Source of the DNA: Candidatus Poseidoniales archaeon
Lineage (GTDB): Archaea; Thermoplasmatota; Poseidoniia; Poseidoniales; Poseidoniaceae
Length of the DNA stretch: 34,867 nucleotides
Assembly: GCA_003602635.1 (NCBI GenBank)
Contig: QQSJ01000007.1
Coordinates: 1 to 34,867, forward strand
Direction of reading: 5' to 3'
Part shown: positions 14,445 to 30,232 of the stretch, piece after piece
Layout of the letters: every line of letters starts with the position of its first letter
How positions within the stretch are numbered: the stretch's first letter is position 1
The notes under the pieces: generated by a model
Database searches by the model: none
What the model saw: the letters and a program-made list of their open reading frames with translations, nothing else
Told to the model about the DNA's origin: nothing
Made by a program: the position numbers and the translations under genes

Positions 14445-17400
14445 ATGCAGGATGCTTCGGCACGTGCGCTCGGCTTGGTTTCCATCCTCCTTCTTTCGAC
14501 CACGCTCGCCGTGGTGAGCCCGAGCGCAGGGGCAGAATCCGCTTTGGACATCGAGGTCCTCGACACCAAGGTCAACCCCGCCAACAACCACACCTACCAT
14601 CTGCTCTCCGCGTCCTCATGGACGGAGGCTGCACAGGCAGCACGGGGACTCGAAGGATTCCTTGTGACCGTCGATGACGAAGCAGAAAACACGTGGCTCC
14701 ATGAGACGTGGGGCAACGATGGGAACGTCACACGCCACCTTTGGACAGGCCTCAACGACGCCGGTGAAGAGGGCGTGTTCCGCTGGCATGACGGAACGCC
14801 TTTCCTCCACCGACAGTGGGGCGAGGACCAACCCAGCATGACCGACGTGGAAGATTACGTCCACATCACGGGACCCAACATGGGTTCGATCGAACCCGGA
14901 GCATGGAACGATCTCGAGAACGACCCGCAATATTTCCCTGTTTACGGCGTGGTGGAAATTGGACCCGGTGCAGACTTTGCGTTGCGCTTTGACGGCGACG
15001 ACGATCACGTCATCACCGACGACGACACCACCTTGACGGAACCTGCAACCGCAGGCGAACTGACCATTGAGGCACGCATCAATCCTGCAGACCTCGACGG
15101 CATCCACACCGTCGTCATGTACGGTGACCACGGCTACGGGCTCTACCTCAACGATGGACGGTTGGGGTACGCCTCTGAATACAGCCTTTCCAAGAACCCC
15201 CTCAGCGACGCAAACATCAGCGTGCCAACCGATGCATGGTCGACGGTGGCCGTGGCCGTGAACGCAACCACAGGCGGGACCTTCTTCCTCAACGGCGAGG
15301 CGATTGGAAGCTTTGACGCCACGAAGGCAGAAATCCCGTCGGGTGATTTTGGATCAAACGATTGCTATGAGTCTGGTTTGGCCTGTCAAAACTTGGTCAT
15401 TGGCCGGCATGGTGCCGGTGCTGACCGCTACCATTTCCACGGGATGATCGACCACGTGACCATCGCAGCGAACGACATGCGGGAGACGTCAAACGACGGC
15501 AACGTCACGTTGCTGGCGCCCACAAGTGCGATGTCCACCTGGACCTTTGGCGAGGGAGAAGGCGACCAAACCACCGACTCCAACAACCGTTCAGCCACCG
15601 TGCACGGGGCGGCTTGGGTCATGCCAGACGGTTCCATCGTGGCCCAAGCCATGGAACTGGAAAACGGTGAGGAACTCATGTTGGACGACATCAGTGCAGG
15701 AGACACGCTCCTGTTCTTCGCTGAACTTCCCCAATACACCCGCGACATGACCCTCCAAGCATTCGGATGGTCCGCAGGGAACGGGAAGGAAGAGGGCGAT
15801 GCGGAGTTCAGCCTCTTCCACGACATCGACCGTGTTCCTTCGGCTTGGTCCCACATGGACGAGGTGGAAGATTGGGGCTGGGGTGGCGTCTTCGCGTCCT
15901 ACAGTTGGCCCGACGCCGGTGTGCACTGGTTTGCGTTGCAGGCTGAAGCCGACATCGATGAATTCAGCCTCTGGATCGATTGGGACGTTGCCGAAGCACC
16001 CCCAACCTTGGACGACATGATTGAACTGAAGCACGGCATTCCCGTGGCCGACCAGGAACTGCAAAGCCAACGTGGCAGTGAATTCGGGGACAGCGTGCAG
16101 TACTACGTCAACGTCACCGAACCACTCGCTGACCTTTCCGTGGAAACCTACGGCGGCAACGGGAACGTCAACCTCGCCATCTCCTACGGCGGACCACCGG
16201 ACCCCTTCGGTCAGTGGAGCGAATGGGACGAGTGGGACATCATCGGTGCACCCGGAGTGTTCGGAGATGACAGCGACGTTGAAGCATACGAAGACTGGTC
16301 CACAGGCCCTGGAAACGAAGAGCAGGTGCACCTCTACAACCTGCAACCAGGCATCTACTACATCACCGCCTTCACGTGGGGCCAAGCCCGGGACTACAGC
16401 ATCGTCGCGGACTTGACACCGATGCCCACCAACGGAGAAGCCGCTGACGCGATTGCCCTGACGGCAGGCGTTCCCTACGGGCCATTCTCGGGATACGACG
16501 GACTCAGCCAATACTTCACCATCGATGTACCCGATGGAACAGAACGGCTTGAGGTCAGCCTCGACGACGGTCTTGGCGAAGCAGACTTGCATCTCGCCTA
16601 CGAATCCACGCCCACCGAGACCGTGTACGACGAGCGCAGTGCAGCGCCAGGCGCCAACGATCGGGTGGCGTTTAACGACCCAACTCCGGGAACGTGGATG
16701 ATCCTCGTGCACACCGACCGCGTCTTCAGCGGAACAACCATCCTTGCGGAATTCACCGACCGATACGTCTGGGATTGGGACGGTGAACCGATTCAACTGC
16801 TCAACGGTGAAGCCATTGTTGGCATCGAAGCCGAAGAGGGCACGGTGCTGGAGTTCTTTGGCATCCTCGAAGAGCCCGCATCACCCCTCGAGGTCAACAC
16901 GTGGGGCGATGAAGGGAGCATCGAACTCGAGGGCGAAGCCGAGCCCTACGATTGGGAGATGCTCTTCGAGGATGGACCACGCGGTCGACAATGGGGCGAA
17001 CAGAGCTGGTCCACTGGCGACGGTGTTGCTTGGACCTGGTACGTGGACACCGCCGCCAATGGACGCTTCGACGTCACCGTGGAAGTCGTCGATGACATCA
17101 CCGGCTTCGGCATCATCGCCACATGGTTCGAAGCCGACCTGCCTCCGGTCGACGACGATGACGACGATGATGTGGACGAACCGTTCGAACCAGAAGGATG
17201 CGAAGAGAGGGCCATGGATTGGTTCGAGGATCTGGACACCAACAGGGACGGTCTCGTCACCGTTGACGAGCATCGCCCCCATCCCTCGACGGGTACGCCT
17301 GCAGCGGACGTTGACAAGAACGGGGATGAACGCATCCAGATGGAAGAAGTGGAAGCGGACCTCTGCACCTGTGGCGAGGAATTCATGTTCATTTGGGACC

Positions 17401-18008
17401 AAGCGGACGATGCCGATGCAATCACCGTCGAAGACCTCGAGGAGATCGACTACCTGAACGAGATTGACGTCGAAGCCATCGACCGAGACGGAGATGGCGA
17501 CATCGACGGTGGAGAAGCCGAGCGTCACACCTTGGCCTGCAGCACGACCTACGACCCGCTGGACCTTGACGGAGACGGCGTGCCGAACGAAGACGATGCC
17601 TTCCCAGAAGATCCCGACGAAAGCCTGGACACCGACGGTGACGGCGTTGGGGACAACGCTGACTTGGTTTCAGGCGTCAACGACTCGATGGTCACCTACG
17701 GGGCTGCTGCGGCCGTCCTGGTGCTCATCATCGTCTTGCTCTTGACCATGCTGCGCCGAGGACCCGGCGGTTCGCACGTCGACCCATGGGCGGAATCCGG
17801 AGACGAGAAGCGAATGCCCGAATTGTTTGACAACACGATGGCCATGCCGGAGCCGCTACCTACCACCGCCGAACCAACCTCCAGCAGCGCAACCGTTGAC
17901 CCACAGGACGTCCAGCCTGTTCCGGAAATGATGGACCTGCCCAGCATGACCGACCTGCCACCTGCGTTGGATGACGCCCTTCCGGGTGCACCGCTCGAAT
18001 GGCGTTGA
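14445..18008 (+). CDS. large secreted/membrane-anchored surface protein: signal peptide, C-type-lectin-like, LamG/ConA-like, three PPC-like repeats, EF-hand/dockerin-like and thrombospondin-3-like Ca-binding segments, C-terminal TM and cytosolic tail
   Basis: Signal-like LGLVSILLLSTTLAVVSPSAGAES; lectin-like HTYHLLSASSWTEAAQAARGLEGFLVTVDDEAENTWL...LWTGLNDAGEEGVFRWHDGTPF; DTNRDGLVTVDE, DKNGDERIQMEE, DRDGDGDIDGGE; DLDGDGVPNEDDAFPEDPDESLDTDGDGVGDNAD; TM AAAAVLVLIIVLLLTML. Start placed at internal Met 14445 because it begins the signal peptide. Confidence 0.85.
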   Translation: MQDASARALGLVSILLLSTTLAVVSPSAGAESALDIEVLDTKVNPANNHTYHLLSASSWTEAAQAARGLEGFLVTVDDEAENTWLHETWGNDGNVTRHLWTGLNDAGEEGVFRWHDGTPFLHRQWGEDQPSMTDVEDYVHITGPNMGSIEPGAWNDLENDPQYFPVYGVVEIGPGADFALRFDGDDDHVITDDDTTLTEPATAGELTIEARINPADLDGIHTVVMYGDHGYGLYLNDGRLGYASEYSLSKNPLSDANISVPTDAWSTVAVAVNATTGGTFFLNGEAIGSFDATKAEIPSGDFGSNDCYESGLACQNLVIGRHGAGADRYHFHGMIDHVTIAANDMRETSNDGNVTLLAPTSAMSTWTFGEGEGDQTTDSNNRSATVHGAAWVMPDGSIVAQAMELENGEELMLDDISAGDTLLFFAELPQYTRDMTLQAFGWSAGNGKEEGDAEFSLFHDIDRVPSAWSHMDEVEDWGWGGVFASYSWPDAGVHWFALQAEADIDEFSLWIDWDVAEAPPTLDDMIELKHGIPVADQELQSQRGSEFGDSVQYYVNVTEPLADLSVETYGGNGNVNLAISYGGPPDPFGQWSEWDEWDIIGAPGVFGDDSDVEAYEDWSTGPGNEEQVHLYNLQPGIYYITAFTWGQARDYSIVADLTPMPTNGEAADAIALTAGVPYGPFSGYDGLSQYFTIDVPDGTERLEVSLDDGLGEADLHLAYESTPTETVYDERSAAPGANDRVAFNDPTPGTWMILVHTDRVFSGTTILAEFTDRYVWDWDGEPIQLLNGEAIVGIEAEEGTVLEFFGILEEPASPLEVNTWGDEGSIELEGEAEPYDWEMLFEDGPRGRQWGEQSWSTGDGVAWTWYVDTAANGRFDVTVEVVDDITGFGIIATWFEADLPPVDDDDDDDVDEPFEPEGCEERAMDWFEDLDTNRDGLVTVDEHRPHPSTGTPAADVDKNGDERIQMEEVEADLCTCGEEFMFIWDQADDADAITVEDLEEIDYLNEIDVEAIDRDGDGDIDGGEAERHTLACSTTYDPLDLDGDGVPNEDDAFPEDPDESLDTDGDGVGDNADLVSGVNDSMVTYGAAAAVLVLIIVLLLTMLRRGPGGSHVDPWAESGDEKRMPELFDNTMAMPEPLPTTAEPTSSSATVDPQDVQPVPEMMDLPSMTDLPPALDDALPGAPLEWR

Positions 18009-18011
18009 GCC

Positions 18012-18929
18012 TCAAAGGGCGTCCTTTGGTCGCAACGCGAGCCGTATTGGTCGCATCAATCGAAGCACATGACTGTGGAGTTCCGGCAAGAGCCGGAACA
18101 TCACGAGGGCCAAGCCATACATGGCGAGCAAGGCCACAACCCGAGCGGCATAGGTGTGCGCGAACTCGAACATTCGAAGACCGAAGACCTCCACCTCACC
18201 GTGGATGGCATGAAGCCAGACGATCCCAGCATTGCGGAAGATGTTCAGGACGTGAATGAGCGGGATCGTGAGCAGCAGAGCACGCATCCTTCGCTTCCAT
18301 GACAGGTCCAAGACGGCGATGGCACCGACAAAGACGATCATCGACTGCAGCGCGGTGCAGGCCAACACGATGTTGACCCCAACCGAGGTACCGTCCGCCC
18401 AGACAAGGTCGGTTTGGATGGGATAATCGCCGAACGGTTGGCTCCAGAACCACATGTTTCCATCCCACTCTTCCCAGAGCACTTGTCCTTCAGGCGTGCT
18501 GACGTAAGTCTCTCCGACGCGCACGTCACCGGCCCCACTGAACCGGAGCATCAGGGCCGATTGCGAAGCCACGGCCACGATGGCCAGTTTGCTCAACCAA
18601 GGAACATGGTAAGTCGCAAGGTACGGCAAACCGGCCAAGGCGACGGCCCCCTTCAACCAGCGCAAGGCCGAAACGTCACGTGCATCCTCCGCCTTCCATT
18701 CCCACCAAGCAAGACCAATGCAGGCAGGCAATGCAGCGCTGAGCATCACGGTCAGGACGGGATCTCCCTCCTGCCAATATCCGTCGGCCATGAGGAAAAA
18801 ACCGAGGCCAACCAAAGGCCAAGCGAGGAGACTGACATTGTGCAGGCCTACTCGACGGGACAAGGAAAGGCCGAGGAGGAGCATGCCTGAGGCGAGCAGC
18901 CCGATGGACTCCACAGAAGCCCCCGCCAT
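18012..18929 (-). CDS. artA: archaeosortase (exosortase/archaeosortase family transpeptidase-like membrane protein)
   Basis: Multi-TM protein with family-style motifs ACTALQSMIVFVGAI (Cys), KRRMRALLLTIPLIHVLNIFRNAGI (NxxRN), and FAHTYAARV; start at MAGASVESIG rather than the long upstream ORF extension. Confidence 0.82.
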   Translation of the reverse strand: MAGASVESIGLLASGMLLLGLSLSRRVGLHNVSLLAWPLVGLGFFLMADGYWQEGDPVLTVMLSAALPACIGLAWWEWKAEDARDVSALRWLKGAVALAGLPYLATYHVPWLSKLAIVAVASQSALMLRFSGAGDVRVGETYVSTPEGQVLWEEWDGNMWFWSQPFGDYPIQTDLVWADGTSVGVNIVLACTALQSMIVFVGAIAVLDLSWKRRMRALLLTIPLIHVLNIFRNAGIVWLHAIHGEVEVFGLRMFEFAHTYAARVVALLAMYGLALVMFRLLPELHSHVLRLMRPIRLALRPKDAL

Positions 18930-26115: not shown

Positions 26116-27141
26116 TCAGCGAGAGGCCAGGGTGAGGTTCTTCCACATGTCCTCAGGAACTTCCATGGACAAACGGAGGCCACCCATGGCACCCAGACGG
26201 ACGGGGTCATCGACCACGTGAACGTTGACGTCGCCCATGTCGGACAGGCGGCGCTCGATCATGGCGCCAAGGCCACGGATGCCAGAGCCACCGCCAGCGA
26301 GGACCATGTTGCGACGGAACTCGTCGTGGAACTCAGGGTTGGAACCGGCGATGAGCACCTTCACGTTCTCAACGATAGGGTCAACGATGGATTCGCACGC
26401 TCGCTGCACGCAATCGGTGATGTCCAGGGTCATGGCCTTGCCTTCGATGGAGAAGTCCACCATGATGGGCTCATCAGGAGGCGACGTGGAGACGAAGGAG
26501 TGCTGTTCCTTCCATCGGCGAGCCATGTCCTTGGTGACCTGGGCGCCGTTGTACTTGCCTTGGACTTCCTTGATGATCTGGCTGTCAACATAATCTCCAG
26601 CGTAGCCGGTGTGCATCTGGTCCCCGGGTCCCGGGATGGTCCCGTAGACGCGGCACAAGTCGGTCGTACCCGCACCGATGTCGATGACAAGGGTGTGCTC
26701 AAGCATGTCGAGGGCGTAAGCGACGGCGAAAGGTTCCGAGATGATCATGGCGGCGTTGACGGAGCCTGCTGCTGCATCAAAGATGGCCGTCTTGTCCACG
26801 TGGCTGGCTTCAGCGGGAGCACCGATCACGGCCACGACACGGTCGTAGTCCTCTGGGTCGGACAAGCCGATGAGGTGGGTGATGAAGTGAGCGATGTACT
26901 GTCGGTCTTCAGGGGTGTCCTTGATCACACCGAGTTCGAGCGGACGGTAGAGGTTGAGCGCAAGACGGTTCTTGAGCGCCTCTTCGCCGAAGAGCACGTC
27001 GCGCTTCAGGAAGTTGCGGGCCACAGGGTCCTTGGGGGTCCCAATCACGGTCAACTCTTCCACTTCGTGGGATGCGGAGGACACCATGACGGAACGGAAG
27101 GTTCCGAGGTCGATTCCAATGTAAAGCGTCTCTTTGGCCAT
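26116..27141 (-). CDS. actin-like ATPase, MamK/MreB family (MamK-like)
   Basis: Phosphate-1 IGIDLGTFRSVMVSS, phosphate-2 LVIDIGAGTTDLCRVYGTIPGPGDQ, AGDYVDSQI, KEQHSFVST, adenosine motif VLAGGGSGIRGLGAMIERRL, C-terminus DPVRLGAMGGLRLSMEVPEDMWKNL. Confidence 0.9.
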   Translation of the reverse strand: MAKETLYIGIDLGTFRSVMVSSASHEVEELTVIGTPKDPVARNFLKRDVLFGEEALKNRLALNLYRPLELGVIKDTPEDRQYIAHFITHLIGLSDPEDYDRVVAVIGAPAEASHVDKTAIFDAAAGSVNAAMIISEPFAVAYALDMLEHTLVIDIGAGTTDLCRVYGTIPGPGDQMHTGYAGDYVDSQIIKEVQGKYNGAQVTKDMARRWKEQHSFVSTSPPDEPIMVDFSIEGKAMTLDITDCVQRACESIVDPIVENVKVLIAGSNPEFHDEFRRNMVLAGGGSGIRGLGAMIERRLSDMGDVNVHVVDDPVRLGAMGGLRLSMEVPEDMWKNLTLASR

Positions 27142-27192
27142 GGGCCCACGAGCGTGGTTTCGCTTATGAACCATCCCTTGGCTGAATCGGGC

Positions 27193-28245
27193 TCAGCACC
27201 ACGCCTCACAGGTGTGGCAATACCATGCTGCGTGTTCGGGGTAAAGCTGAGCCATACCCGAGCACGAGGTGCACTCTTTCTGGGCTTGATCGCCGAACAG
27301 TTGCATCACGATGGACACGTGGTGATGGTCATCGATGCCTAGTTGTTGGCGCATGGCCCAAAGGAGCTGGTCCTCGGAAGGTGAGATGATGCCGTCTTCA
27401 AGCACCAGTTGAACGACGCTCTTGTAGTCGTCAATGACCTGAATTTCACGGTGATCGAGGCGCACTCCTCCTTTTTCTGCGACGATGTCCTGTCCACCAG
27501 GGTCATCGGCAAACACCACGAGGGAATGGGCCTTGAACGCATCATCACGCAATTCGAGGTGAATGCTGCTGCCTTCGAGATTGGCGTAGACCAACCGCGA
27601 GTGACGGTTGATTGTGTTCGTGATGGAACGGGCCGTGTCTTCCTTGGTACGACCACGTCGCCAACCGGTGGGGCTGGATTCGTTGTAGGCGTAGAATTCG
27701 GTACCGTAGCCTGGATACTCCAGCCGGAGTTCTTCGCCACCGTCGAAATCGTTGGTCAAAATGTGGAATGCAGCCACGTGGGTGGACATGATGTTGTCAT
27801 CGTCATCGAAACTGATCATCAGCGGTTTTCGCTCTTCAGCCGCTGCGTTGAATTGTCCTTGCATGCCCGTCATCCACTTGTCTTCGAGGCGCTTCAGACT
27901 GGCTTCCTGTTCACCTGACAATCCCTTGTCGATGCCCAACATGCCGCGCAATTCACCGGATTGCATCTCTTGGTTGAATTGGCTGATCAGTTCGCTGTTG
28001 TAGTGATGATCATCCCGTGTCGGACCAGCGTTGCTTTCGACATGGTTTGGGTCGGCCCATTCGTAGTTGCACTTGGAACACGCCAAGTATCCTGTCATGG
28101 TCGAAGGTTGTGCATCACCACCGCAGCGTGGGCAATCGCCCTCTTCGTTCACGGCCAAGTTGTCTGCTGCTTCACGCCGTCCTCGACGGGGGTTGAATCC
28201 AGCCATGGCCTCCGAGGGTCCGAGGCCGGACTTCAAGGTGTCCAT
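27193..28245 (-). CDS. protein with N- and C-terminal zinc ribbons and a TerB-like helical segment; unknown function
   Basis: CPRCGGDAQPSTMTGYLACSKC near N-terminus; CTSCSGMAQLYPEHAAWYCHTC at C-terminus; preceding helical stretch YKSVVQLVLEDGIISPSEDQLLWAMRQQLGI; start could also be TTG 28251 or ATG 28206. Confidence 0.7.
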   Translation of the reverse strand: MDTLKSGLGPSEAMAGFNPRRGRREAADNLAVNEEGDCPRCGGDAQPSTMTGYLACSKCNYEWADPNHVESNAGPTRDDHHYNSELISQFNQEMQSGELRGMLGIDKGLSGEQEASLKRLEDKWMTGMQGQFNAAAEERKPLMISFDDDDNIMSTHVAAFHILTNDFDGGEELRLEYPGYGTEFYAYNESSPTGWRRGRTKEDTARSITNTINRHSRLVYANLEGSSIHLELRDDAFKAHSLVVFADDPGGQDIVAEKGGVRLDHREIQVIDDYKSVVQLVLEDGIISPSEDQLLWAMRQQLGIDDHHHVSIVMQLFGDQAQKECTSCSGMAQLYPEHAAWYCHTCEAWC

Positions 28246-28247
28246 CC

Positions 28248-29066
28248 TCAAAGGCGGAGGGCCTTCCGTCCGTAGCGAAGGGTTCCGTCTTGCGCGTACA
28301 CGCGTCGCACGACCAGACCAACGGCGTCGTCAATGGCGACCTCCGACGGATGACCGTCGGCGTACAGGAACACACCAGAGGGACCATGGTCAAAGGCGAC
28401 GATCAACGACGTAAGGCCACCAAGAACCGGTGCGCGGATGGAAAATTCCGACGGGCATCCGGCTGCGATGAGGCGCGTCCAGGACATCACACGGGCCGTC
28501 AGCGAGAGGGCGTGTCCTTCGCTTGGAAGAGAGCCGTCGGCGTTGGAACCTCGAGGAGGCCACATCGGTCCAGCTTGAGCCTGCATGCCAAGCCGCGCCT
28601 CTAAACCAAGAAGGTGGACCTGGTCGGAAACGTAGGCACCTTGGGACACGTTTTGTCCGCTCAGTTCCACGGCCCAAGCCTCCTGCATGGCGGCGTGGGT
28701 CGCTTCATCCACTGGAATGCGAGCGTCTGTGTCGACCACCACGGCAGCGGCATCAAAGGAAGCGGAACGCTCCATGACGGCCGCACCATGGTCGAAACGA
28801 TGCACGACGTGAGGGCCTTGTTCGTTGAGGGTCAACCACGGCAAACTCGCCGTCAAGATGGGGCGTTCTTCCTCCGTGAGATCGACGGACACGTCACCGT
28901 CATGGCCCCGGCGATGCCATGCCTCAAGGGCGTCGATCACCGTGGTGAGGGCGTCAGCGTCTGGTGCATGCACACGAGTATCGTTCACGTGGAAGCGGGA
29001 CGCCACGACCACGCCGTTTGACCCGTGATGAACGGCCACACCTGCTTCGGTTTCGGCGAGGTTCAT
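28248..29066 (-). CDS. DUF35 OB-fold-like acyl-CoA-associated protein, zinc ribbon cysteines missing
   Basis: C-terminal SLTARVMSWTRLIAAGCPSEFSIRAPVLGGLTSLIVAFDHGPSGVFLY...DAVGLVVRRVYAQDGTLRYGRKAL matches DUF35 OB layout; 4-nt ATGA overlap with thiolase. Confidence 0.6.
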   Translation of the reverse strand: MNLAETEAGVAVHHGSNGVVVASRFHVNDTRVHAPDADALTTVIDALEAWHRRGHDGDVSVDLTEEERPILTASLPWLTLNEQGPHVVHRFDHGAAVMERSASFDAAAVVVDTDARIPVDEATHAAMQEAWAVELSGQNVSQGAYVSDQVHLLGLEARLGMQAQAGPMWPPRGSNADGSLPSEGHALSLTARVMSWTRLIAAGCPSEFSIRAPVLGGLTSLIVAFDHGPSGVFLYADGHPSEVAIDDAVGLVVRRVYAQDGTLRYGRKALRL

Positions 29067-30232
29067 TCCTGTGACCTCCCGAACACGTGAACGGCACAGG
29101 TGGCTCCAGAACCTCCAACGTTGTGGGTGAGGCCAAGTTCAGCATCACGCACCTGACGTGGTCCTGCTTGACCACGAAGTTGCTTGAACACCTCCACGGC
29201 CTGACCCGCGCCTGTAGCGCCCAAGGGGTGACCTTTGGCCTTCAATCCACCAGAACCGTTGACGGTGGTACGTCCCTCGTTCCGCCGGCCTTCGCCGTCG
29301 CGTGCGTACCGTCCGCCTTGGCCGACATCGGTCAGGCCAAGGTCTTCCGTCGCCAAAAGTTCGGCGACCGTGAAACAGTCGTGAACTTCGGCCAAGTCAA
29401 GGTCCCCGGCCACGATTCCTGATTGCGCGTAGGCTTGCGACGCGGCTGACCGTGTGGCCGCCAGCGTCGTGAGGCTGGGTCGGTCATGGAGCGCTAGGTG
29501 GTCTGCTGCAGCCCCGCTTCCACGCATCCACACCGGCGTGTCGGTGAGGGTCCTGGCCACGTCCGCGGAAGCGAGCACGACGCACGCTGCACCGTCCGAA
29601 GTCGGGCAGCAGTCGTACAGCGTCAACGGGTCCGCGATCACCATGCCGCCCGCCGCCTTTTCGAACGAGACGTCCTTGCGCAGGTGAGCGTGAGGGTTGT
29701 CGAGGGCGTGAGCGTGATTCTTGACGCTGATGTGCACCAAGTCGTCATGCGTCGAACCGTGTTCGTGCATGTGGCGGCGAGCCATCAGTGCGTAGGTCCC
29801 GGGGAAGGTCAGGCCCGCGAGCCGTTCCCATTCCGTGTCGCCCGAGACCCCCAACCAGAAGCGCTTCCGTTCGGGGGTGAGGTCGTTCATTTTCTCAACG
29901 CCTCCAACCACGACCACGTCGGCTCGACCACTGGCGATGGCCGCCCAACCGTCACGCAAGGCGAAACCAGACGATGCACATGCGTTCTCGATCCTTCGAG
30001 CTGGAACGCCCGCCATACCTGCGTGTTCGGCCAAGTAGGCCGCCGTGTTGCCCAATTGACCGCCGCCAAAGGCCGTAGAGCCCAGGAAGACTTCCTCAAC
30101 GGAGGAGGGGGCAAGGTCCCCGTCAATGGAGGCAAAACAGTCCCGCACGGCCTCGGCCCACATGTCCTTCATGGCGGCGGGATGGGTGCCATAGGGCGTT
30201 TGCCCCGCGCCGACCATGGCAACATCGACCAT
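29063..30232 (-). CDS. thiolase family acetyl-CoA acetyltransferase
   Basis: VAMVGAGQTPYG..., ENACASSGFALRDGWAAIASGRADVVVVGGVEKM, AEVHDCFTVAELLATEDLGL, NGSGGLKAKGHPLGATGAGQAVE. Confidence 0.93.
   Translation of the reverse strand: MVDVAMVGAGQTPYGTHPAAMKDMWAEAVRDCFASIDGDLAPSSVEEVFLGSTAFGGGQLGNTAAYLAEHAGMAGVPARRIENACASSGFALRDGWAAIASGRADVVVVGGVEKMNDLTPERKRFWLGVSGDTEWERLAGLTFPGTYALMARRHMHEHGSTHDDLVHISVKNHAHALDNPHAHLRKDVSFEKAAGGMVIADPLTLYDCCPTSDGAACVVLASADVARTLTDTPVWMRGSGAAADHLALHDRPSLTTLAATRSAASQAYAQSGIVAGDLDLAEVHDCFTVAELLATEDLGLTDVGQGGRYARDGEGRRNEGRTTVNGSGGLKAKGHPLGATGAGQAVEVFKQLRGQAGPRQVRDAELGLTHNVGGSGATCAVHVFGRSQE

Follow-up and report, generated by a model that had tools for sequence, protein, structure and literature searches.

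MamK-like actins with conserved neighbouring genes in archaea of the order Poseidoniales

The window, meaning the whole stretch of DNA analysed here, comprises 34,867 nucleotides from a Candidatus Poseidoniales archaeon (Thermoplasmatota, Poseidoniaceae; GenBank assembly GCA_003602635.1, contig QQSJ01000007.1, positions 1 to 34,867, forward strand). It carries an actin gene, designated paralog A, followed upstream by three genes on the same strand:

26116..27141, minus strand: paralog A, MamK-like actin ATPase of 341 aa (NCBIfam, PDB and fold match)
27100..27117, minus strand: phosphate-1 motif GIDLGT, residues 9-14 of A (alignment)
26734..26736, minus strand: Glu136 of SEPF in A, lined up with MamK's catalytic-Glu motif and invariant in the A/B/MamK alignment
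26659..26682, minus strand: phosphate-2 motif DIGAGTTD, residues 154-161 of A (alignment)
26284..26298, minus strand: adenosine motif AGGGS, residues 282-286 of A (alignment)
27193..28251, minus strand: F4, zinc-ribbon, mixed alpha-beta protein of 350-352 aa with a TerB-like C-terminal part, separated from A by 51 bp on the upstream side; putative adaptor of A
28248..29066, minus strand: F28, 272 aa, uncharacterised; shares the direction of F4-A in only some of family 1 (6 loci)
29063..30232, minus strand: thiolase-like gene, upstream, co-directional syntenic neighbour lying outside the module

The open reading frame of A runs from an ATG at 27141 to a stop at 26116; starting from the ATG at position 27174 would lengthen the protein by 11 aa, and the start equivalent to 27141 is used by most orthologs. 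Comparison with a same-genus ortholog gave a dN of 0.036 and a dS of 1.2 (ratio ~0.03), so the reading frame is not a chance one, and A is under strong purifying selection. The motifs GIDLGT, SEPF, DIGAGTTD and AGGGS bear out the full set of actin ATPase motifs that a sequence-only reading, made before any database search, had seen in the 341-aa protein, and the archaeal host it assumed agrees with the SBDS, diphthamide synthase and KptA genes around A, to which proteasome and RFC genes can be added by eye. Elsewhere in the window a membrane protein (18012-18929), by eye archaeosortase/exosortase-like, adjoins a large surface protein (14445-18008).

Searches against NCBIfam with its curated cut-offs gave A 357.7 bits with the MamK model (NF040964, cut-off 400), 206 with BeeR (530), 91 with MreB (NF010539, 293) and 59 with salactin (400), below the cut-off in each case, while the MamKs of 11 magnetotactic genomes scored 422-548 bits on the MamK model. 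Among PDB sequences (phmmer) the matches were MamK (1.2e-74, 255 bits, 38-39% identity), BeeR (4.5e-44) and MreB (1.6e-14), and in Pfam A matched MreB_Mbl at 91 bits. An AlphaFold model of the A monomer (mean pLDDT 89) had as its top fold match the MamK filament subunit 5ljv (TM 0.89/0.93), followed by MamK monomers, BeeR and MreB. By NCBIfam, PDB, tree and fold alike, A is nearer MamK and BeeR than MreB, other actins or Hsp70, and there is a strong case that it is a MamK-like actin ATPase.

A and MamK are 37-40% identical over their full length and have in common the stretches GTxPxPxDQ...AGDxID, KEQxSFV and DP..GA.GGLRLxxEVPxxxW. MreB, which has the same actin fold, lacks PKD, GTxPxPxDQ and the C-terminal MamK-type stretches, and retains of the shared stretches only the general AGDxxD and DP positions. 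The earlier judgement that A resembles MamK rather than ordinary MreB, based on such stretches, thus agrees with the NCBIfam, PDB and tree results. BeeR, a three-stranded actin of Verrucomicrobiota (8r2n), is the second best solved relative and, like A, is a MamK-related actin of non-magnetotactic organisms (PMC11929497), but it is only 30% identical to A and has an N-terminal extension of 30-50 aa, whereas A begins at the first strand. Salactin is likewise an actin of archaea, reported to be most closely related to MamK (PMC10746226), yet A scores six times lower on the salactin model than on that of MamK. Bbp (big bacteria protein), compared with A by description alone, is another MamK-related, non-magnetotactic actin, in this case bacterial, reported to fall between MamK and MreB (PMC10580974). 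An Asp in A at the site of the MamK mutation A278D, which blocks polymerisation, was discarded as a diagnostic residue because acidic and polar residues are frequent at that site in bacterial MamKs.

A is not a lone gene, as it had first appeared to be: the same genome encodes a further MamK-like protein, paralog B, whose gene lies on a different contig (44% identity between A and B), and both have conserved partner genes across the order. The distribution was examined in 146 genomes of the order, representing two families and 21 genera, within a sample of 390 genomes of the phylum Thermoplasmatota. In family 1 a strong MamK-like match was present in all genomes (73/73), most of which have two, with scores around 350-376 bits for A and 328-349 bits for B. 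In family 2, MamK-like proteins were found in 13 genomes of the genera g14 (part), g16, g18 and g21; the remaining genomes showed nothing beyond weak matches (E ~1e-6 to 1e-9), such as chaperones would give. The actins are dispensable in many family-2 lineages. Beyond the order, the sole strong match in the phylum sample was in G211, a Thermoplasmatota genome of 5 Mb (435 bits, exceeding the MamK cut-off), where the actin gene (L080:9128-10225) lies directly upstream of a gene for a 618-aa coiled-coil protein (L080:10423-12279). Bacterial contamination was rejected as the source of this match because its contig has archaeal-type RpoB, TsaD and diphthamide synthase genes, though the contamination of the genome is 7%. 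Two other sources of the actins were considered and set aside: SAR324 as a marine donor (only 3 of its 52 genomes matched strongly, each scoring higher than the MamK cut-off) and plasmids or phages (no plasmid homolog, and phage matches at MreB level at most).

A tree was built from 33 bacterial MamKs, 13 MreBs, BeeR, the G211 protein, A and B, with the root set by the long MreB branch. The 33 magnetosome MamKs are monophyletic (100/100) and exclude A and B; the G211 protein joins them (96/99), A comes next (91/73) and B lies nearer the root, with A separated from MreB at 100/100 and adjoining MamK. The AU test retains both a clade of A and B (p 0.41) and one of A, B and G211 (p 0.42). Judged by these alignments and trees, A and B belong to the MamK superfamily without being MamK, their mutual branching order being unsettled, and A forms a separate lineage beside MamK. 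The affinity to MamK originally proposed for A stands, A adjoining MamK in the tree, with the correction that A is not MamK proper, as it scores below the cut-off and lies outside the magnetosome clade. Among the magnetotactic genomes themselves, tandem mamK pairs were observed in several of the delta type (L172, L175-L177, L179), the copy in L179 being notably divergent.

When the neighbourhoods of A and B were compared with the mamK neighbourhoods of magnetotactic bacteria (blastp), the sole matches were the actins themselves and a generic ABC transporter, and the sequence-only reading was right to see no mam-type neighbour at this locus. That A is a magnetosome gene, acquired horizontally by a magnetotactic archaeon, is suggested by the similarity to MamK itself and by nothing else; A lies in an archaeal host outside the magnetosome MamK clade, there is no other mam-like gene in the A and B neighbourhoods, and the actins are spread over a planktonic order with no reported magnetosomes. 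We give this explanation next to no chance, and a magnetosome role of A and B is excluded as far as tested in the neighbourhoods.

Genes were called in about 40 neighbourhoods of A and B, and the orders F4-A and F3-B-F2 are kept across both families. Wherever F4 was called (18/18 neighbourhoods), it immediately precedes A. F4 consists of an N-terminal and a C-terminal zinc ribbon, one or other of which is absent in single genomes, a conserved middle and a weakly TerB-like stretch, and a fold search with the protein gave no significant match. The fold of its middle (residues about 158-263) weakly resembles those of flagellin and phage tail proteins (E 1e-3 to 1e-2), perhaps by chance. In profile searches of family 2, F4 was found in 13 of 13 actin-positive genomes and in none of 60 negatives, counts that ignore kinship, and it is missing from two family-1 genomes that have B only (G066, G119). 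Exceptions are G010 and G055, fragmented assemblies that have F4 and a single, B-like actin match.

Six family-2 genera without actin keep the synteny IPK - F11 - KptA - thiolase - (F12) - CoaBC, and between the thiolase and F12 or CoaBC only F4-A is absent, the flanking matches lying as little as 10 bp apart. The absence of F4-A alone from otherwise intact synteny argues that F4 and A come or go together, and the retention of the thiolase gene where they are absent places it outside the unit. F28 is probably not part of the module either. F4-A has the same synteny in the two families, which fits a gene pair present in the ancestor and later lost from the small-genome genera of family 2. Absence of the genes from three g14 genomes (G007, G065, G132) was not accepted as a true loss, since the CoaBC gene is also absent there and an assembly gap may be responsible.

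B sits between F3, upstream, and F2. F3, at L057:5454-8375 and just upstream of B in the neighbourhoods where the region is covered, is a secreted subtilase with TSP3 repeats, a C-terminal hydrophobic (transmembrane) segment and a short cytoplasmic tail. F2 is a soluble coiled-coil protein, roughly 380-430 aa long, whose central part is very conserved and which has no convincing Pfam match. Profile searches of family 2 found F2 in 12 of 13 actin-positive genomes and 0 of 60 negatives (kinship again ignored), a weak partial coiled-coil match in G019 being treated as unrelated; three family-1 genomes that have A only (G112, G093, G123) lack F2, and one fragmented assembly (G141) has two actin matches and no F2. 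F2 has no recognisable homology to the coiled-coil protein of G211, and none of F2, F3 and F4 has a relative of solved structure that would reveal a linking function.

ParM is an actin-fold protein that acts in DNA partition. With this precedent, and given the zinc ribbons of F4, A and B might segregate DNA (the chromosome) in the manner of ParM with F4 as a DNA-binding adaptor, but neither F2 nor F4 contains a recognised DNA-binding domain above cut-off, and the lack of plasmid homologs and the MreB-level scores of the phage matches also weigh against such a function, which we consider decidedly unlikely.

We propose instead, with about as much reason to expect the proposal to hold as to fail, that A and B together with F4, F2 and F3 form a filament system, powered by ATP and belonging to the MamK superfamily, whose task is to position a cargo that is not magnetic and may be linked to a membrane. 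It is in keeping with the sequence-only suggestion that A may belong to an archaeal filament system for another cargo, which the results support. The proposal draws on the nearness of A to MamK in sequence and predicted fold, on the two paralogs in this genome and in most of family 1, on the strong purifying selection on A, on the conserved orders F4-A and F3-B-F2 and on the joint presence and absence of F4 and F2 with the actins; the coiled-coil gene downstream of the G211 actin is counted in its support. A and B would polymerise with ATP, separately or together, into cytoplasmic filaments, a property that we infer for both. F4, adjoining A, and F2, adjoining B, would be filament-specific adaptors that link the filaments to a cargo at the membrane or cell surface. 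The F3 product is the best candidate for this cargo, though naming the surface protease, or its membrane region, as such is guesswork. Much as MamK does with its adaptors, but without magnetosomes, the system would serve to position the cargo or to segregate it. Gene adjacency does not prove contact, and the contacts A-F4, B-F2 and B-F3, like the joint work of A and B, are presumed. A more far-reaching version would make A, B and the G211 protein one archaeal clade sister to magnetosome MamK, forming a two-filament cytoskeleton tied through the coiled-coil and zinc-ribbon proteins to the surface protease, and thus an inside-outside positioning system of archaea that are very abundant in the surface ocean; we think it unlikely that all of this will hold.

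The distribution of the module also bears on two other roles. A and B could be a cytoskeleton for cell shape or cell size that scaffolds the envelope in larger cells. Lineages with larger genomes retain the module (family 1; family-2 g16, g18 and g21, 1.6-2.1 Mb), most of the small family-2 genomes (1.2-1.7 Mb) are without it, and the MamK-related Bbp, for which a similar role has been suggested, marks big bacteria (PMC10580974). Genome size is not cell size, however; deletion of salactin leaves the rod shape unchanged (PMC10746226), and an mre-type partner was not noticed in the neighbourhoods, where none was searched for by name. We regard the scaffold as possible but doubtful.

The families of Ca. 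Poseidoniales (Thermoplasmatota) are Poseidoniaceae and Thalassarchaeaceae, and every genus of the former and half of the genera of the latter possess an archaeal flagella operon (Rinke et al., PMC6461757); the archaellin pattern over our 146 genomes resembles this, and family 1 is presumably Poseidoniaceae. Family 1 combines universal actins with nearly universal archaellin, as would be expected if A and B organised the archaellum pole. In family 2, archaellin occurs in 7 of 13 genomes with actin and 16 of 60 without (Fisher p 0.10), g16 has actins without archaellin, and g13 and g20 have archaellin without actins. Tested across the 146 genomes, the link is unsupported in family 2, and a pole organiser is highly improbable.

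Nine genomes tested for division proteins have 2-3 FtsZ-type proteins each, so division is probably FtsZ-based with or without the actins. Snf7/CdvB gave no match in the same nine genomes, in a search that detected its Sulfolobus control itself weakly. Three matches to the FtsZ/tubulin superfamily were seen in most of G016, G002, G017, G044, G003, G007 and G024.

MamK-related actins outside magnetotaxis are already known (BeeR, Bbp, salactin). No paper naming MamK together with Poseidoniales was found in a literature search that left most subscription journals outside, and the main texts examined of genome papers on Marine Group II (MGII, the Poseidoniales) mention no cellular actin or MreB; an archaeal two-actin system with its own partner genes looks so far undescribed within the literature covered. 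Few planktonic archaea are commoner than those of Marine Group II, which are uncultured, and a conserved two-actin module with fixed neighbours offers a concrete handle on the organisation of their cells. The position of A and B in the tree, between magnetosome MamK and other actins, bears on the origin of MamK.
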